DNA from: Gallionellaceae bacterium UBA5126
Lineage (GTDB): Bacteria > Pseudomonadota > Gammaproteobacteria > Burkholderiales > Gallionellaceae
DNA: 8,910 nucleotides
Direction of reading: 5' to 3'
Assembly (NCBI GenBank): GCA_002414205.1
Contig: DHYQ01000056.1
Coordinates: 1-8,910 of the forward strand
The position numbers and the translations under genes are program-made. Positions 2,312 through 8,888 of this stretch are shown here, one piece after another. Position 1 is the stretch's first letter. Every line of letters starts with the position of its first letter. The notes beneath the pieces are model-generated. The model was not told the origin of the DNA. It was given only the letters and a program-made list of their open reading frames with translations, and made no database searches.

Positions 2312-3211
2312 TCAGGGACGTTGCACCGTCAGTTTGCCAATGCGCCCATCGACTTCGCGCAACTCGACCGGATGATGCGGCAGGCAGGTAGTGGGGAGGT
2401 GGGCGAGGTAGTCTTGCATGGCGACCAGTTGGTAGCCTTGTTTTTTCCAACCGTCCAGCAGTTGCTCGAACACCGGCATCCACTTGCCGCCTTCCAGTTC
2501 GGCGTGCAGAGTGAAGACGTGGCCGGTGGGCGGCGCGTCCTGGGTCAGATTCAGCATGTACTCGGCCAGATTGTCCAAAGTCAGGCCGTCGCGGTTAATC
2601 AGCTCGTCCAGCGTCGGCAGGGTCGTGGGCAGTTGCGGGCAGGCGATGATTTCGCCGTCCCAGGTAGGAATAAACGGCGCATAGCCCCGGCTGTCAGAGC
2701 TGTAGCGGAAGCCCAGCCGCTGCATCAGGCGGAAAGCGTGGCGGTTCATTTGCCAACCGGCGGCGGCGTGGGCGTGGGGTTCTTCGCCAAACACATCCCG
2801 ATACACGGCGATGGCGCGCTCCAGCTCGCGCTTCGTCCACGCTTCATCCTTGTGGACGACGTGATCCTGCCAGCGGATGTGGTCGTGGCAATGAATGCCG
2901 ACTTCAAATCCAGCCTCCTTGACGCTGCGCAAAATGTCGCGGCAGCGTTTGCCGATATTCGGCGCCGGCAGCAAGGTGCCGTACAGCAAAGTCTTGATGC
3001 CGTAATGCTCCACCACCGACATGCGCGACACCTTTTGCAAGTAGCCCTTGCGGAACACGCGGAAAATGGCGCGGCCCATGTTGTCCCGGCCCAAGGTGAA
3101 AAAAAACGTCGCGCCAGCTTGGTGGCGTTGCAAGGTTTCCATCAAGCGCGGCACACCTTCCCGCGTGCCGCGATAGGTGTCCACGTCGATTTTCAGAGCG
3201 ATTTGTTTCAT
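2312..3211 (-). CDS. arnD: ArnD, 4-deoxy-4-formamido-L-arabinose-phosphoundecaprenol deformylase
   Basis: The NodB/polysaccharide-deacetylase fold protein (299 residues) removes the formyl group from Ara4FN on undecaprenyl phosphate. This yields the Ara4N donor for lipid A modification and resistance to cationic peptides. The start KIDVDTYRGTREGVPRL (7-23) carries the metal-binding Asp pair. HCHDH at 107-111 supplies catalytic histidines, AAAGWQMN is also typical, and FTLHAELEGG near the C-terminus carries the last conserved His. These are hallmarks of ArnD rather than of general chitin-type deacetylases. The ATG at 3211 places the first motif as in known ArnD. An in-frame ATG at 3253 would add 14 residues encoded by a repeat and is rejected. 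No good ribosome-binding site is visible at either start. The synthase gene for UDP-4-keto-pentose lies just upstream. Confidence 0.93.
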   Translation of the reverse strand: MKQIALKIDVDTYRGTREGVPRLMETLQRHQAGATFFFTLGRDNMGRAIFRVFRKGYLQKVSRMSVVEHYGIKTLLYGTLLPAPNIGKRCRDILRSVKEAGFEVGIHCHDHIRWQDHVVHKDEAWTKRELERAIAVYRDVFGEEPHAHAAAGWQMNRHAFRLMQRLGFRYSSDSRGYAPFIPTWDGEIIACPQLPTTLPTLDELINRDGLTLDNLAEYMLNLTQDAPPTGHVFTLHAELEGGKWMPVFEQLLDGWKKQGYQLVAMQDYLAHLPTTCLPHHPVELREVDGRIGKLTVQRP

Positions 3212-3230
3212 GGGAAGGGTGAAGAGAGCG

Positions 3231-3379
3231 GTAGGGTGCAATAAGCGCAGCACATTGCACCAACCAATTGAACAAGAAGGTTAATTTGTGGAGCGAATGA
3301 TTTCGCTACAAATTGGATTGCACATCCACCTGACGTTCCGATGATTATGGTGCAGTGCGCTACGCTTACTGCACCCTAC
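3231..3379. repeat. Pair of inverted REP-like palindromic repeats between arnD and the UDP-sugar synthase gene
   Basis: Two 32-bp arms, 3231-3262 and 3348-3379, are inverted copies matching at 28 of 32 positions. Both carry the GTAGGGTGCA core. Each arm is itself palindromic (GGTGCAAT with ATTGCACC in the left one), so each can form its own hairpin as well as pair with the other. This is the layout of REP/BIME or small MITE-type elements. The GTAGGGTGC type is, to my knowledge, widely scattered in proteobacterial genomes. The element fills nearly the whole gap between the two genes. Confidence 0.85.
3283..3314. repeat. Second hairpin nested between the repeat arms
   Basis: AATTTGTGGAGCGAA (3283-3297) pairs with TTTCGCTACAAATT (3301-3314) around a short loop, with one unpaired base. 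The sequence is unrelated to the GTAGGGTGC arms. It resembles the separate, common TGTAGGAGCGAA-type palindromic repeat of gammaproteobacteria. It looks like a second element sitting within the first. Confidence 0.7.
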
Positions 3380-3388
3380 GTGGGCGTT

Positions 3389-4429
3389 TTAATCCATCAA
3401 GCGGCGAGCTTCGCCAACCTGCCCACGATACGCATCAAAAATGTTGCGCAGGGTGTCGGCCATGCCGACGGTGGGCTTCCAGTCCAGTTCTTCGCAGGTG
3501 TTGGTGATCTTGGGCACGCGGTTTTGCACGTCCTGATAACCCTTGCCGTAATACGCGGCGGAGGTGGTTTCCACAATCTTCACCTTGGCGGCAGAGTCGC
3601 GGTATTCGGGATACTCTTCGGCCAAGGTCAGCATCATGTCGGCCAGATCACGAATGGCATAGTTGTTGGTCGGATTGCCGATGTTGTAAATCTTGCTGCT
3701 GGCCACGCCATCCTTGTTTTCGATGATTTTCATCAAGGCGCTGATGCCGTCGTCAATGTAGGTAAAGGCGCGTTTTTGATGGCCGCCATCCACCAGACTG
3801 ATGGTTTCGCCGCGCACGATGTGGCCCAGAAATTGGGTGACGACGCGGGAGCTGCCTTCCTTGGGGGTGTGAATGGAGTCCAGACCGGCACCGATCCAGT
3901 TGAAGGGACGGAACAGGGTGAAGTTCAGGCCGTCCATGCCGTAGCCCCAAATCACGCGATCCATCAATTGCTTGGAGCAGGAATAAATCCAGCGTGGCTT
4001 GTTGATCGGGCCGCAAATCAACTCGGAATTGTCCGGGTCGAATTCCTCGTCGTGGCACATGCCATACACTTCGGACGTGGAGGGGAACACCAGATGCTTG
4101 TTGTACTTGGCGGCGGCGCGCACGATGGGCAAGTTGGCTTCAAAGTCCAGCTCGAACACGCGCAGGGGCTGCTTCACATAGGTGGAAGGCGTAGCAATCG
4201 CCACCAGCGGCAGAATCACATCGCACTTTTTGACGTGGTATTCCACCCACTCCTTGTTGATGGTGATGTCGCCTTCAAAGAAGTTGAAACGAGGCTGATC
4301 GAGCAGGTCGGTGATACGGTCGGTACTCATGTCCATGCCGTACACCTCCCAGTCGGTGGTGTTCAGAATGCGTTGGGACAGGTGGTGGCCGATGAAACCG
4401 TTGACACCGAGAATCAGGACTTTTTTCAT
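3389..4429 (-). CDS. UDP-4-keto-pentose/UDP-xylose synthase (ArnA C-terminal-domain-type UDP-glucuronate decarboxylase)
   Basis: The 346-residue extended short-chain dehydrogenase oxidises and decarboxylates UDP-glucuronate to UDP-4-keto-pentose, the precursor of UDP-Ara4N. It has the Rossmann motif GVNGFIGHHL (8-17), STSE at 117-120, and YSCSK with Tyr149 and Lys153. Arg304 in GYQDVQNRVPKI corresponds to the decarboxylation Arg of E. coli ArnA; the Thr118-Tyr149 spacing also equals that of ArnA. The ArnA formyltransferase half is absent, so this is the stand-alone form. The Ralstonia solanacearum relative also makes UDP-xylose, and whether this one does cannot be read from sequence. The start at 4429 is supported by AAGGA six bases upstream and by the immediate Rossmann strand. 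In-frame ATGs farther upstream add a non-homologous stretch. arnD follows beyond the repeats. Confidence 0.93.
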   Translation of the reverse strand: MKKVLILGVNGFIGHHLSQRILNTTDWEVYGMDMSTDRITDLLDQPRFNFFEGDITINKEWVEYHVKKCDVILPLVAIATPSTYVKQPLRVFELDFEANLPIVRAAAKYNKHLVFPSTSEVYGMCHDEEFDPDNSELICGPINKPRWIYSCSKQLMDRVIWGYGMDGLNFTLFRPFNWIGAGLDSIHTPKEGSSRVVTQFLGHIVRGETISLVDGGHQKRAFTYIDDGISALMKIIENKDGVASSKIYNIGNPTNNYAIRDLADMMLTLAEEYPEYRDSAAKVKIVETTSAAYYGKGYQDVQNRVPKITNTCEELDWKPTVGMADTLRNIFDAYRGQVGEARRLMD

Positions 4430-4463
4430 TGTTTTTCCTTGTGGGCGATTTAGAGAATGTAAA

Positions 4464-4483
4464 ACAGGCCGCGAACGGCCTGT
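4464..4483 (-). terminator. Terminator-like hairpin in the leader of the UDP-sugar synthase gene
   Basis: On the minus strand an 8-bp perfect stem, ACAGGCCG with CGGCCTGT, closes a TTCG loop and is followed by TTTTACATTCT. It lies downstream of the synthase promoter and 34 bases before the start codon. It could end transcripts reading through from recJ, attenuate the synthase transcript, or both. A second, weaker pairing lies just upstream on the same transcript (GCTGGT 4515-4520 with ACCAGC 4496-4501). The T-run is interrupted, so efficiency is uncertain. Confidence 0.55.
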
Positions 4484-4536
4484 GCAAAATTTGATGCTGG
4501 TCATTCGTGCGCGCACCAGCTTGCGCGAGCGGGCGC

Positions 4537-6300: not shown

Positions 6301-6350
6301 GAAAAATGGGGGGCGGAGTTTAACCGATTCGCCGTGCGTGGGTGGCGTGC
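6301..6350. repeat. Left copy of a ~50-bp direct repeat (upstream block of the hipBA scar)
   Basis: This block matches 8277-8325 in the same orientation, with one length difference and about three or four substitutions. The last 22 bases, GCCGTGCGTGGGTGGCGTGC included, are nearly unchanged. It lies 13 bases upstream of the recJ start. It contains a TTAAACT sequence on the minus strand that could serve as a weak -10 box for recJ, with no matching -35 box. Confidence 0.85.
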
Positions 6351-6353
6351 ATA

Positions 6354-6486
6354 CAAGGCGCTGGTCTTAACCCAGGCGCAACTGGCCTCGGCGATAGGGC
6401 TGGGGCCGCGCTTTGTGGTGAAACGGATGGCGCGGTTGCAACAACGGGTGGCGTTGACTGAGCGACGCTTTATCGAAACGGGTTGA
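6354..6486 (+). pseudogene. Remnant of a hipB-type antitoxin gene (left hipBA scar)
   Basis: Positions 6354-6420 align without gaps to 8461-8527, the helix-turn-helix part of the right-hand hipB, at 57 of 67 bases. The translation KALVLTQAQLASAIGLGPRFVV preserves the first helices of a Cro/C1-type domain. No start codon or N-terminal part is present: the block jumps straight from the shared upstream repeat into the domain, a loss of about 135 bp relative to the right copy. After 6420 the reading frame continues into MARLQQRVALTERRFIETG and stops at TGA 6484-6486. That tail is not hipB, and may be the last codons of a lost hipA. It is not expected to make a working antitoxin. Confidence 0.7.
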
Positions 6487-6497
6487 GCGGGCTGTCG

Positions 6498-6525
6498 CCC
6501 GCCATGCCGCTTAGCGGCAGGCGGG
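6498..6525. repeat. Palindromic hairpin after the left hipBA scar and the SET-PLP gene
   Basis: CCCGCC-A-TGCCGC pairs with GCGGCA-GGCGGG around a TTA loop, giving 12 base pairs with one bulged A. It follows the scar's TGA and resembles the left arm of the repeat at 8809-8840 (both read CGCCATGC...GCGG...GCGGGG-like). It also lies 5 bases past the SET-PLP stop codon on the other strand, so it could act as a transcript end for that gene, though no T-run follows. Confidence 0.7.
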
Positions 6526-6530
6526 GTGCT

Positions 6531-8198
6531 TCACACTAGATATTCGCCGGGCAGTCCCTTCAGGCAGTGATCGCTGGCCATGCTCGCGCCATAAGCGCCT
6601 GCCGGGAAAAAGGCCAGCAAATCGCCTTCGCTCATCTGTGGCAGGGGGCAGTCGCGTGTGAAGAGGTCATTGGCCTCGTTGATATTGCCAGCGAGCACAT
6701 AATGCGCGGCAACAGCGGCACCGGGGTGCTGCACCGCGATGATTTCCTGCGGAATCTGGTAGTGCGCGGCATAGACATTGACGTTGTGCCCGCAATCGAC
6801 CCCCAGCCAAGGCTGTCCAAAACGTTGTTCCACGGTATTGATTTCAGTCACCAGCAAGCCGGAGGAGGCGACAAGATAAGTGCCGGATTCACAGGCGATG
6901 CGTAGGCCAAGGGGGGCCAGATGTGTTTTGAGCAGCGCCGACCAGCTTGCAAGCGACAGCGGCTCATCCTGCGCCACCTGCTTCCAGCACAGGCCGCCGC
7001 CGACGTTGAGCGTGGTGAGGGTTGGCATCTCACGTGCCAATTCGGCTACTTGGTGCAGAACGTCTGCCAGATGAGTGCTAATGTCTTGCTGCAAGCCCCA
7101 GCCGACGTGGAGATGCAGGGTGTCGACCACCAATCCTAATTGCCCGGCATAGGCATAGGCCTCCTGCGCCGCTGACAGCGCAAAGCCAAATTTGCTGTTG
7201 CCATAAGACAATTTCGGATTGTCGCCATAGCCCAGGGCCACGCCGGGATCCAGACGCAAGCCGATGTGGGTCGAATGCCCCTCGGTGGCCGCCCAGCGCC
7301 GCAATGCCGAAAAAGTATCCAGATTCAAATGAACCCCATGGTCGGCGTACTGCCGCAAATCGCGATTGGACGGCATGCTGCACGTGACCGAAATCTCGTC
7401 CGGTTGGAAACCGGCAGACAGGGCCAAGGCCACTTCGCGTGGCGAACTGGTGTCGATACCAAGGTCACGCGCCTCCCGAATGACTTGCAGCACGGGGGCG
7501 TGGCGATTGGCTTTTACGGCGTAATACATGCGATAAGGCGCGCCCGTGGACTGCAAGGCCTGGCGCAGCTCGGCAATGCGGCGGCGTATCGTTTGGCCGG
7601 AATAGAGATACAGCGGCGTACCGTGTTCGCGTGCTAAATCGGCCACCACATTGCCATCCAGCATCAAGCCACGCTCACTCTGCTGCAATTCGTCCTGCTG
7701 CCACCAAGGCGCTGTTGGCATGCGCTGACGCAGATAAGGCAAGGCCAAATCGGCCAGCCGCACCTGTTGTGCCGGTGACAAATGGCGAAAACCGCGAATA
7801 TGCCCATGACAGCACGCCTGACCACATTGGCACAAAAACGGGGTCGCCATATCCCATTCGCTACTCAGATAATTGAAAGTCACCTCTTCTCCGGGACTGA
7901 GTGGCTTGAGGGCGACCACTTCCAGCGTTTCCGCCACAAAGCGCGCACTGGGTGCGCAACTGTGATTGAGAAACGCCCCCAGATTGTGATCGGTCACCAG
8001 ATGTTTGCCGTGATCCACCTGAATGGTGTACTTGGTCGGATGGGGTATGAACACCGCGTCAAACATCGTCAGACGTTCACCCACCGCAAAATGTCTGGCC
8101 GCAAAAATACCCAGGCCATGTCCACGATGTTCCAGCAAAAGACCAGAAGCGAGGTGGGTTCCAGGCGGCGGGGGCAGTGGCGATTTGTGTTCACTCAT
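6531..8198 (-). CDS. SET domain - fold-type III PLP decarboxylase-like fusion protein
   Basis: A 555-residue two-domain protein of unknown substrate. Residues ~15-140 are a SET (protein-lysine methyltransferase) fold: RGHGLGIFAARHFAVGE at 25-41, NHSCAPSARF at 78-87 for S-adenosylmethionine binding, GEEVTFNYL at 103-111 with the usual Tyr110, and post-SET-like FLCQCGQACC at 121-130. Residues ~185-555 resemble diaminopimelate/ornithine decarboxylases. They hold YYAVKANRHAP (Lys229 for the PLP Schiff base), HLHVGWG (His364), NVGGGL (399-403), ESGTYL (438), GNINEANDLF (504-513) and AGAYGASMAS (533-542). The family's CES motif reads NEA here. A linker rich in Trp and Gln joins the halves. AAGGA lies 7 bases before the ATG. 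A TACAAT about 55 bases upstream lacks a clear -35 box. No biosynthetic partner genes are visible; hipBA scars flank it on both sides. Confidence 0.85.
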   Translation of the reverse strand: MSEHKSPLPPPPGTHLASGLLLEHRGHGLGIFAARHFAVGERLTMFDAVFIPHPTKYTIQVDHGKHLVTDHNLGAFLNHSCAPSARFVAETLEVVALKPLSPGEEVTFNYLSSEWDMATPFLCQCGQACCHGHIRGFRHLSPAQQVRLADLALPYLRQRMPTAPWWQQDELQQSERGLMLDGNVVADLAREHGTPLYLYSGQTIRRRIAELRQALQSTGAPYRMYYAVKANRHAPVLQVIREARDLGIDTSSPREVALALSAGFQPDEISVTCSMPSNRDLRQYADHGVHLNLDTFSALRRWAATEGHSTHIGLRLDPGVALGYGDNPKLSYGNSKFGFALSAAQEAYAYAGQLGLVVDTLHLHVGWGLQQDISTHLADVLHQVAELAREMPTLTTLNVGGGLCWKQVAQDEPLSLASWSALLKTHLAPLGLRIACESGTYLVASSGLLVTEINTVEQRFGQPWLGVDCGHNVNVYAAHYQIPQEIIAVQHPGAAVAAHYVLAGNINEANDLFTRDCPLPQMSEGDLLAFFPAGAYGASMASDHCLKGLPGEYLV

Positions 8199-8276
8199 GG
8201 GTCAATCCTTACAAAAAATAGGGGCGGATGGCGGGATTCGCCGGGTGGCATTGTAAAAATGCAGCGACAGGTGGGC

Positions 8277-8325
8277 GAAAAAAGGGGGCGGAGTTTAACT
8301 GATACGCCGTGCGTGGGTGGCGTGC
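8277..8325. repeat. Right copy of the ~50-bp direct repeat
   Basis: The same block as 6301-6350, here between the SET-PLP gene (start 8198) and the hipBA control region. In both places the block lies upstream of a minus-strand gene and next to hipB sequence on the + strand. The shared order suggests that both copies come from one locus. Confidence 0.85.
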
Positions 8326-8341
8326 TTGGCGATATTAAAAA

Positions 8342-8404
8342 TTCCCGAACGGGATGTTCTTGTGGTTTTGACATGCTTTTCGCCATATTTTTCCTGAACG
8401 GGAA
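8342..8404 (+). promoter_or_regulatory. Likely hipBA operator/promoter region with two palindromic sites
   Basis: Two near-identical palindromes, TTCCCGAACGGGA (8342-8354) and TTCCTGAACGGGAA (8391-8404), start 49 bases apart. Each is followed by TTTTGACATG (8366-8375 and 8406-8415). The spacing is close to five helical turns. Paired inverted repeats ahead of hipB are what the HipB dimer binds in known autoregulated hipBA operons; binding here is inferred. A consensus TTGACA at 8368-8373 has no good -10 box at normal spacing, so the exact promoter is uncertain. Confidence 0.6.
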
Positions 8405-8412
8405 TTTTTGAC

Positions 8413-8641
8413 ATGAGCCAAATCGACACAACACTACAATTCGGCGCGGCGGCGGGCGCGCAAGGCGCTGGGCTTGACCCAGGCGCAACTGGCTTTGGCG
8501 GCGGGCGTGGGGCCGCGCTTCGTGGTGGAGCTGGAGGCGGGCAAACCCACCGTGCGCTTGGCGCAGGTGCTGCGCGTACTGGCCGCGCTGGGCGGGACAT
8601 TGCATCTGGATGGATTGCCGGAGGATGACCCTGCGGCATGA
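8413..8641 (+). pseudogene. hipB: Frameshifted hipB-type antitoxin gene (right hipBA scar)
   Basis: HipB is the DNA-binding antitoxin of HipA kinase toxins. The N-terminus MSQIDTTLQFGAA is read from ATG 8413. The rest, ARKALGLTQAQLALAAGVGPRFVVELEAGKP and on to LRVLAALGGTLHLDG, is read in the next frame, ending TGA 8639-8641. The frame changes inside the G/C-only run at 8443-8461, where one extra base (or two lost bases) explains it. The second frame has a stop at 8414-8416 and no start codon before 8474, within the first helix. The domain order and the LEAGKPTV signature fit HipB. The 3' end overlaps the hipA start by 17 bases. It is either a true pseudogene or an assembly error in a hard GC run. 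Confidence 0.75.
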
Positions 8642-8801
8642 GCTGGCGGTGTGGCTGTTTGCCGACTGGGTCGGCGTGCTGGGCTGGCAGGAGGGGCAGT
8701 TGCAGTTTGCCTATCGCGCCGACTGGCTGGCGCGGGATGATGCGCGCCCCTTGTCGCACAGTTTGCCGTTGCAGGTCGAGCCATTTGGCGACGCGGGTTG
8801 A
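8625..8801 (+). pseudogene. hipA: Truncated hipA toxin gene, N-terminal fragment only
   Basis: The 58-residue product begins MTLRHELAVWLFADWVGVL and continues through FAYRADWLARDDARPLSHSLPL to VEPFGDAG, then TGA 8799-8801. This is the beta-strand N-terminal subdomain of HipA serine/threonine kinases, where SLPL and the following Pro/Gly are conserved. Full-length HipA is about 400-440 residues, so the whole kinase domain, with the ATP-binding and catalytic residues, is missing. The fragment overlaps hipB as in intact operons. The last bases, CGGGTTGAG, also end the left scar, so an internal deletion is likelier than a simple premature stop. The product cannot act as a HipA kinase. Confidence 0.8.
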
Positions 8802-8808
8802 GTAGGTC

Positions 8809-8888
8809 GTAGCCCGCCATGCAGCGCAGCGGAATGCGGGGATTTTTTGCGGATCATCCCGGATTTCGCTGCGCTGCATTCGGGCTAC
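8809..8888. repeat. Inverted-repeat element (REP/MITE-like) downstream of truncated hipA
   Basis: The left arm 8809-8840 starts GTAGCCCGCCATGCAGCGCA. The right arm 8858-8888 ends GCATTCGGGCTAC. They are inverted copies with one length difference and a few mismatches, around a short AT-rich centre. GTAGCCCG...GCAGCGCAGCG elements of this kind are, to my knowledge, dispersed repeats in many proteobacteria. A relative of the left arm follows the left hipBA scar at 6498-6525. The last 22 bases of the window show nothing recognisable. Confidence 0.8.

Follow-up and report, generated by a model that had tools for sequence, protein, structure and literature searches.

What might a single bacterial polypeptide do that joins a SET methyltransferase domain to a pyridoxal 5'-phosphate (PLP) decarboxylase? 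The question is raised by a gene on contig DHYQ01000056.1 of Gallionellaceae bacterium UBA5126 (GCA_002414205.1), of which an 8,910-nt stretch, here called the window, was analyzed. A first-pass annotation had picked out the fusion and guessed that its first half methylates a carrier protein, or a free lysine-like substrate that the second half then decarboxylates, or that the protein modifies itself. The reading favored here, which we consider rather probable, is that the protein would work like a fused BurB and BurI, taking methionine through S-methylmethionine (SMM) to DMSP-amine (3-dimethylsulfoniopropylamine; DMSP, dimethylsulfoniopropionate) in one chain.

The gene (P0001, 555 aa, delimited by frame translation and homologues) occupies positions 6531–8198 on the minus strand, as do all of its features given below, in a single uninterrupted frame of 555 codons and a stop, with an ATG start. 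A Shine-Dalgarno-like AAGGA lies 7 nt ahead of the ATG (8206–8210, minus strand; identified in the sequence by consensus match alone). Pfam finds a SET domain (E = 1.2e-8; 35.8 bits, above the 22.4 cut-off; residues 68–109 matched), Orn_Arg_deC_N (5.2e-30) and Orn_DAP_Arg_deC (3.1e-12). The motifs quoted at first pass are all there as well: NHSC at 78–81, GEEVTFNY ending at Y110, a post-SET CxCG, YAVKAN with K229, and GAYGASMAS. Because a structure comparison of the whole model returned PLP structures only among its 50 rows, the SET half was modeled separately; both halves gave confident models with the expected folds (mean predicted local distance difference test scores, pLDDT, of 87.7 and 90.8), and neither domain lacks its fold.

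The architecture recurs elsewhere. Two homologue searches, one from the window protein and one from P0014, scored about 8000 candidates and placed 237 and 335 proteins above threshold; among the 120 matches listed from each, 12 and 15, with a union of 16, represent further 90%-identity clusters carrying all three Pfam domains. This is a lower bound, so that at least 16 other clusters are fused and the fusion is not confined to one genome; it is neither a product of chance nor two genes run together. Among the matches listed, the fused homologues are 505–569 aa long (P0013 and P0149 are N-terminally short); identity to the window protein is 44–71% for the 12 that it found, and the other four are 43–53% identical to P0014. 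Just one, P0002, has a named source, a Pseudobdellovibrionaceae metagenome-assembled genome. All 17 fused proteins, counting the window protein, keep the four SET motifs tested, and all but one keep the four PLP motifs too, so the idea of a real family with conserved active-site motifs has held up; all eight motifs are present in 16 of the 17. The exception, P0149 (505 aa, from a metagenome), has intact SET motifs and a decayed PLP half, in which the lysine is gone (YAMRAN) and GNINE and GAYG are lost. A tree of the SET domains, built on a short alignment and with long branches, does not decide between single and multiple origins of the fusion.

The SET half spans residues 15–143 (7770–8156), the range aligned to BurB by structure, and BurB (PDB 9l4t, 9l4v) is its best solved relative by sequence, by Foldseek and by structure alignment, four comparisons in all. 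BurB S-methylates free methionine to SMM (PMC7496086, PMC12542666). The BurB ligand positions His93, Tyr124, and Thr73 are retained in the window protein, as mapped through the alignment: H79 of NHSC (residues 78–81; 7956–7967) stands at the position of His93, and Y110, the SET tyrosine (7869–7871), is aligned with Tyr124. A T-x-Q-x(5)-H-L stretch, TIQVDHGKHL (residues 58–67; 7998–8027), is likewise aligned with TLQINAHTHL in BurB. In BurB, His93 is an adenine contact, a Y124A mutant is almost inactive while Y124F keeps more than 60% of activity, and methionine is held mostly through the main chain (PMC12542666). With BurB the fused protein shares the SET fold, the histidine of NHSC, the SET tyrosine and this stretch; BurB itself, a free-standing protein of 172 aa, forms tetramers in solution (PMC12542666) and has LHSC in place of NHSC. 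Small standalone bacterial SETs (P0134, P0137–P0146) also have an S/T-x-Q...H stretch, with an insertion ahead of their FLNHS motif.

The PLP half covers residues 161–555 (6534–7718). K229 in YAVKAN (7512–7514) is, by motif and alignment, the expected Schiff-base lysine of the fold-type III family. The fold, the PLP lysine and a glycine-rich loop are common to this half and to LysA, the meso-diaminopimelate decarboxylase, but the LysA Arg pair and Cys are absent: by alignment, T440 (6879–6881) replaces the Arg of EPGR, Y476 (6771–6773) the Arg of RPxxY, and N507, in GNINE (6678–6680), the Cys of CES/CET, which is catalytic in LysA. The NCBIfam LysA model TIGR01048 is still the best NCBIfam match, at 231.7 bits, under its curated cut-off of 297.9. 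The second PLP copy in the genome (L002, LysA-like, 30% identical) retains all three LysA residues.

In a tree of 58 PLP domains, a 49-row clade (support 100/99) stands apart from LysA and is made up of eight BurI-type proteins, 12 actinobacterial ones, and a 29-member subclade in which fused and unfused proteins are intermingled. The BurI type is represented here by the PLP protein of Eleftheria terrae, not by Burkholderia BurI. The PLP half of the fusion is 37.5% identical to it and shares with it both the clade and the loss of the LysA Arg/Arg/Cys residues; the Asn-for-Cys change is common to the fused group and to the PLP proteins linked to bur clusters or MmtN. The Eleftheria protein differs in being a separate protein of a larger cluster, with a BurB-kind SET as its partner, and in having an acidic pair where the fusion has Thr and Tyr. 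As these substrate-pocket residues differ, the PLP half is not classed as a BurI-type member; the proposal is that it works like one. An argument from charge, in which the acidic pair would bind a sulfonium, was dropped for the fused group, both because Thr and Tyr occupy those sites there and because a partnerless actinobacterial PLP protein also has EPGD (one frame read).

The main argument for SMM comes from the company that unfused relatives keep. In all eight rows of the BurI-type subclade the partner methyltransferase is either a BurB-kind SET or MmtN. MmtN catalyzes the reaction proposed here for the SET half and adjoins relatives of the PLP half; it is not fused to a SET, and its fold is other than SET. 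Its sequence is not significantly similar to that of BurB (PMC12542666). A PLP family paired with two unrelated methionine S-methyltransferases argues for SMM as its substrate. Within the 369 genomes searched from the window's class, four besides its own have an unfused PLP protein of this kind (36–39% identity), and all four have a SET frame immediately upstream of it; one of these SETs, at 21.2 bits, falls just under the Pfam cut-off, and all four pass two further SET models. Stretches of 8–18 kb around these same-class loci hold one aldehyde dehydrogenase (L033, about 5 kb off) that is 29% identical to the Eleftheria one, and no match to the Eleftheria-type aminotransferase.

Seven plasmid records match at E <= 1e-30. 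A plasmid of Sphingomonas paeninsulae has a SET-PLP pair. The Eleftheria terrae cluster has, with the PLP gene, a SET gene about 18 kb from it, whose product matches BurB at 1.7e-73, and aminotransferase, gamma-aminobutyraldehyde dehydrogenase, polyketide synthase-type, and FkbH genes. The order in Rhizobium lusitanum is aminotransferase pieces, PLP gene, then MmtN; Rhodovulum sp. P5 has an aminotransferase, the PLP gene, two MmtN pieces and an aldehyde dehydrogenase. The remaining three records (two Burkholderia, one Aureibacter) fall outside the PLP clade in the tree. Two of these regions have features of their own. The Sphingomonas pair (L035, 6059–15989) sits amid HAMP, Crp/Fnr, STAS, ATP-binding, response regulator, and diguanylate cyclase genes. 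On the Rhodovulum plasmid (L038, 7854–10162) the PLP frame continues without a stop into N-terminal MmtN, with the remaining MmtN in a later frame; this is either a fusion in the reverse order or a broken gene.

On the favored reading, the SET half would methylate free methionine at its sulfur, with S-adenosylmethionine (SAM) as the donor; the PLP half would then turn the resulting SMM into DMSP-amine by decarboxylation, and this amine might be oxidized to DMSP by separate enzymes or used as such. A burI mutant accumulates SMM, and the steps that follow lead from DMSP-amine to DMSP-aldehyde and DMSP (PMC7496086, PMC12542666); B. thailandensis burD and burE mutants still make the product, in reduced amounts (PMC7496086). 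BurB has KM values of 1.8 mM for SAM and 16.6 mM for methionine (PMC12542666), and with constants in the millimolar range a tethered decarboxylase may help by pulling SMM forward. The data show the fusion and its recurrence, the place of BurB as nearest solved relative of the SET half, and the pairing of PLP relatives with two methyltransferase families; the substrate, the order of the steps, and their coupling by the fusion are inferred. Of the first-pass guess of methylation followed by decarboxylation, the small substrate for the first half and the passing of its product to the second are kept, while the lysine-like substrate gives way to methionine, which is better supported. A more specific form of the proposal is put forward tentatively: one polypeptide going from methionine to DMSP-amine could be the first bifunctional enzyme of the DMSP methylation route, in bacteria outside Burkholderia, and in lineages like this one, for which dedicated oxidizing enzymes were not found, the sulfonium amine could itself be the end product, a polyamine-like metabolite.

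A known protein offers a parallel. DsyGD of Gynuella sunshinyii also unites, in one chain, an S-methyltransferase with the decarboxylase that takes the following step in DMSP synthesis; it differs in belonging to the transamination pathway, with 4-methylthio-2-hydroxybutyrate (MTHB) and 4-dimethylsulfonio-2-hydroxybutyrate (DMSHB) as substrates, and in its unrelated domain families, its decarboxylase resembling ureidoglycolate lyase (PMC11306096). In the literature searched, with most subscription papers outside its reach, no description of a fusion of SET and PLP decarboxylase was found. The first-pass statement that no enzyme with this pair had been described therefore stands for the fusion; the pair itself is known as the separate proteins BurB and BurI (PMC7496086, PMC12542666). 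Each reaction is already known, as are the enzymes in separate form; what the literature found does not describe is their fusion.

Several observations weigh against the methionine route. Identity of the window SET to BurB is just 25–28% in structural alignments, and to the Eleftheria SET 32–33%. Nine BurB ligand positions are changed (Arg42, Ala44, His72, Arg133, His138, Met132, Val130, Arg70, and Ser88); where the fused SETs show NHSC, as protein-lysine enzymes do, LHSC or AHSC stands in BurB and in four of the five paired SETs. On the PLP side, BurI-type proteins have EPGD/E and Glu, and the fused group ESGT or EPGT and Tyr or Phe. Most close PLP homologues among the matches listed are unfused, and the tree does not settle the order of the three subclades. 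A search of 346 genomes from the phylum of Amycolatopsis found 12 with a PLP protein of the same clade (34–38% identity), and in none of the 12 was there a BurB-kind SET (a search that did recover one from each of the four genomes with SET-PLP pairs) or, in a search without a positive control, MmtN. With this partnerless subclade and the order of subclades not settled, the clade may have had an ancestral substrate other than SMM. The window's own genome, 78.1% complete, shows no close match to a BurD-type aminotransferase or a BurE-type aldehyde dehydrogenase: identity to the Eleftheria aminotransferase is no higher than 31% for its three class III aminotransferases, and its single frame of the aldehyde dehydrogenase family does not match the Eleftheria enzyme. 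Finally, Rhizobium bangladeshense has a BurB-like SET, 48.9% identical to that of Eleftheria, with no PLP protein listed within 9 kb.

Two of these regions can be described a little further. Among the actinobacterial PLP loci (L044–L055), the PLP start in L045 overlaps, by eye, the end of a frame resembling a major facilitator superfamily transporter. On R. bangladeshense plasmid p7 (L072, 7952–9864) the SET frame overlaps an asparagine-synthase-related gene, and a SAM decarboxylase gene comes next after the SET frame; RuvC and ribonucleotide reductase are found in the same region.

One alternative keeps the two-step logic and changes the substrate: the SET half would methylate another free amino acid or amine, for example at nitrogen, and pass the product on for decarboxylation by the PLP half. 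The pockets of both halves have diverged in the fused group, with NHSC rather than LHSC and several BurB contacts lost on one side and Thr440 and Tyr476 in place of the BurI-type acidic pair on the other, and the actinobacterial relatives do without a BurB-kind SET. Against it, all eight BurI-type rows are partnered by a BurB-kind SET or MmtN, and BurB remains the best solved relative; we think this alternative unlikely, though worth keeping in view.

Less likely still is a regulatory role for the fusion, in which the SET half would methylate lysines of proteins, or else the PLP half to which it is joined. P0002, among others, bears the automatic name "SET domain-containing protein-lysine N-methyltransferase," NHSC and the post-SET cysteines fit such an enzyme, and ASH1L-type SETs are the next structural matches after BurB. 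The closest solved structure is not of the histone or protein-lysine type, however: BurB comes first among SETs and is better by four measures, and a histone-like reading, scoring under BurB in every comparison made, was rejected. The PLP clade, moreover, exchanges SET for MmtN, which is unrelated and acts on free methionine. That BurB ranks first does not exclude lysine activity of the SET half; carrier-protein methylation and self-modification, both raised at first pass, are not supported, methionine being the better-supported substrate.

That the PLP half is an ordinary LysA, and its fusion to SET accidental, is very improbable. LysA is the top NCBIfam match, diaminopimelate decarboxylases lead the fold matches, and public annotations use the same name, but LysA identity was rejected on the score under the curated cut-off together with the three residue changes, at positions where the genome's own L002 keeps the LysA residues. 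It is hardly credible that the gene is dead or arose through faulty assembly or annotation. In favor, a search of the other 149 relatives did not find it, and repeats and remnants resembling hipB lie on both sides of it; against this, two-domain homologues come from other sources at up to 71% identity, the motifs are intact, the models are confident for both halves, and a native recJ lies on the contig.

The genomic setting suggests how the gene arrived. Of 26 genomes of the genus, counting the window's own, 25 have the adjoining recJ (66–76% identity in the other full-length matches), and since this gene is common to the genus, the contig belongs there too. A search of 150 relatives (E <= 1e-60) recovered the fusion from its own genome alone; a search of 399 genomes of the order (E <= 1e-40) yielded its own genome with one further match at 29%; and tblastn found no trace of it in five same-genus recJ loci, in four of which the frame upstream of recJ starts, by its motif, like an aspartate kinase. 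Scanning a collection of genome contigs with the fusion gave 18 loci, all 22–30% PLP relatives and none with a SET according to a local profile. Three direct-repeat families flank the gene, each on both sides. They include a 48-nt repeat (family D3, 92% identical, no strand assigned; 6303–6350 and 8278–8325) and a 92-nt repeat (family D1, 78%, plus strand), with a left copy like a helix-turn-helix/hipB remnant (6341–6432) and a right copy in a hipB-like frame (8448–8539), both likenesses by eye. With the fusion restricted to this genome among the relatives searched, a native recJ contig and flanking repeats, it looks like a local acquisition, probably by lateral insertion. Regions 6303–6526 and 8278–8841 contain two diverged copies resembling, by eye, hipB/hipA remnants. 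Elsewhere in the window (2312–4516), a gene for an ArnD-like deformylase (below the NCBIfam cut-off) lies beside one for a bifunctional UDP-4-keto-pentose/UDP-xylose synthase, perhaps a partial aminoarabinose set.

A 2026 review has BurB reported exclusively in B. thailandensis (PMC13360808), and an earlier paper has it in only some Burkholderia (PMC9135737). The fused family, the SET-PLP pairs of four same-class genomes and of Sphingomonas, and the Eleftheria cluster together suggest that SET-type methionine S-methylation is distributed more widely than Burkholderia. If the proposed function is true, the fusion would join DsyGD as the second example of an S-methyltransferase of DMSP synthesis linked in one chain to the decarboxylase that acts next, and environmental genomes could be screened for sulfonium synthesis by looking for SET together with Orn/DAP decarboxylase domains, among proteins now labeled as lysine methyltransferases or diaminopimelate decarboxylases.
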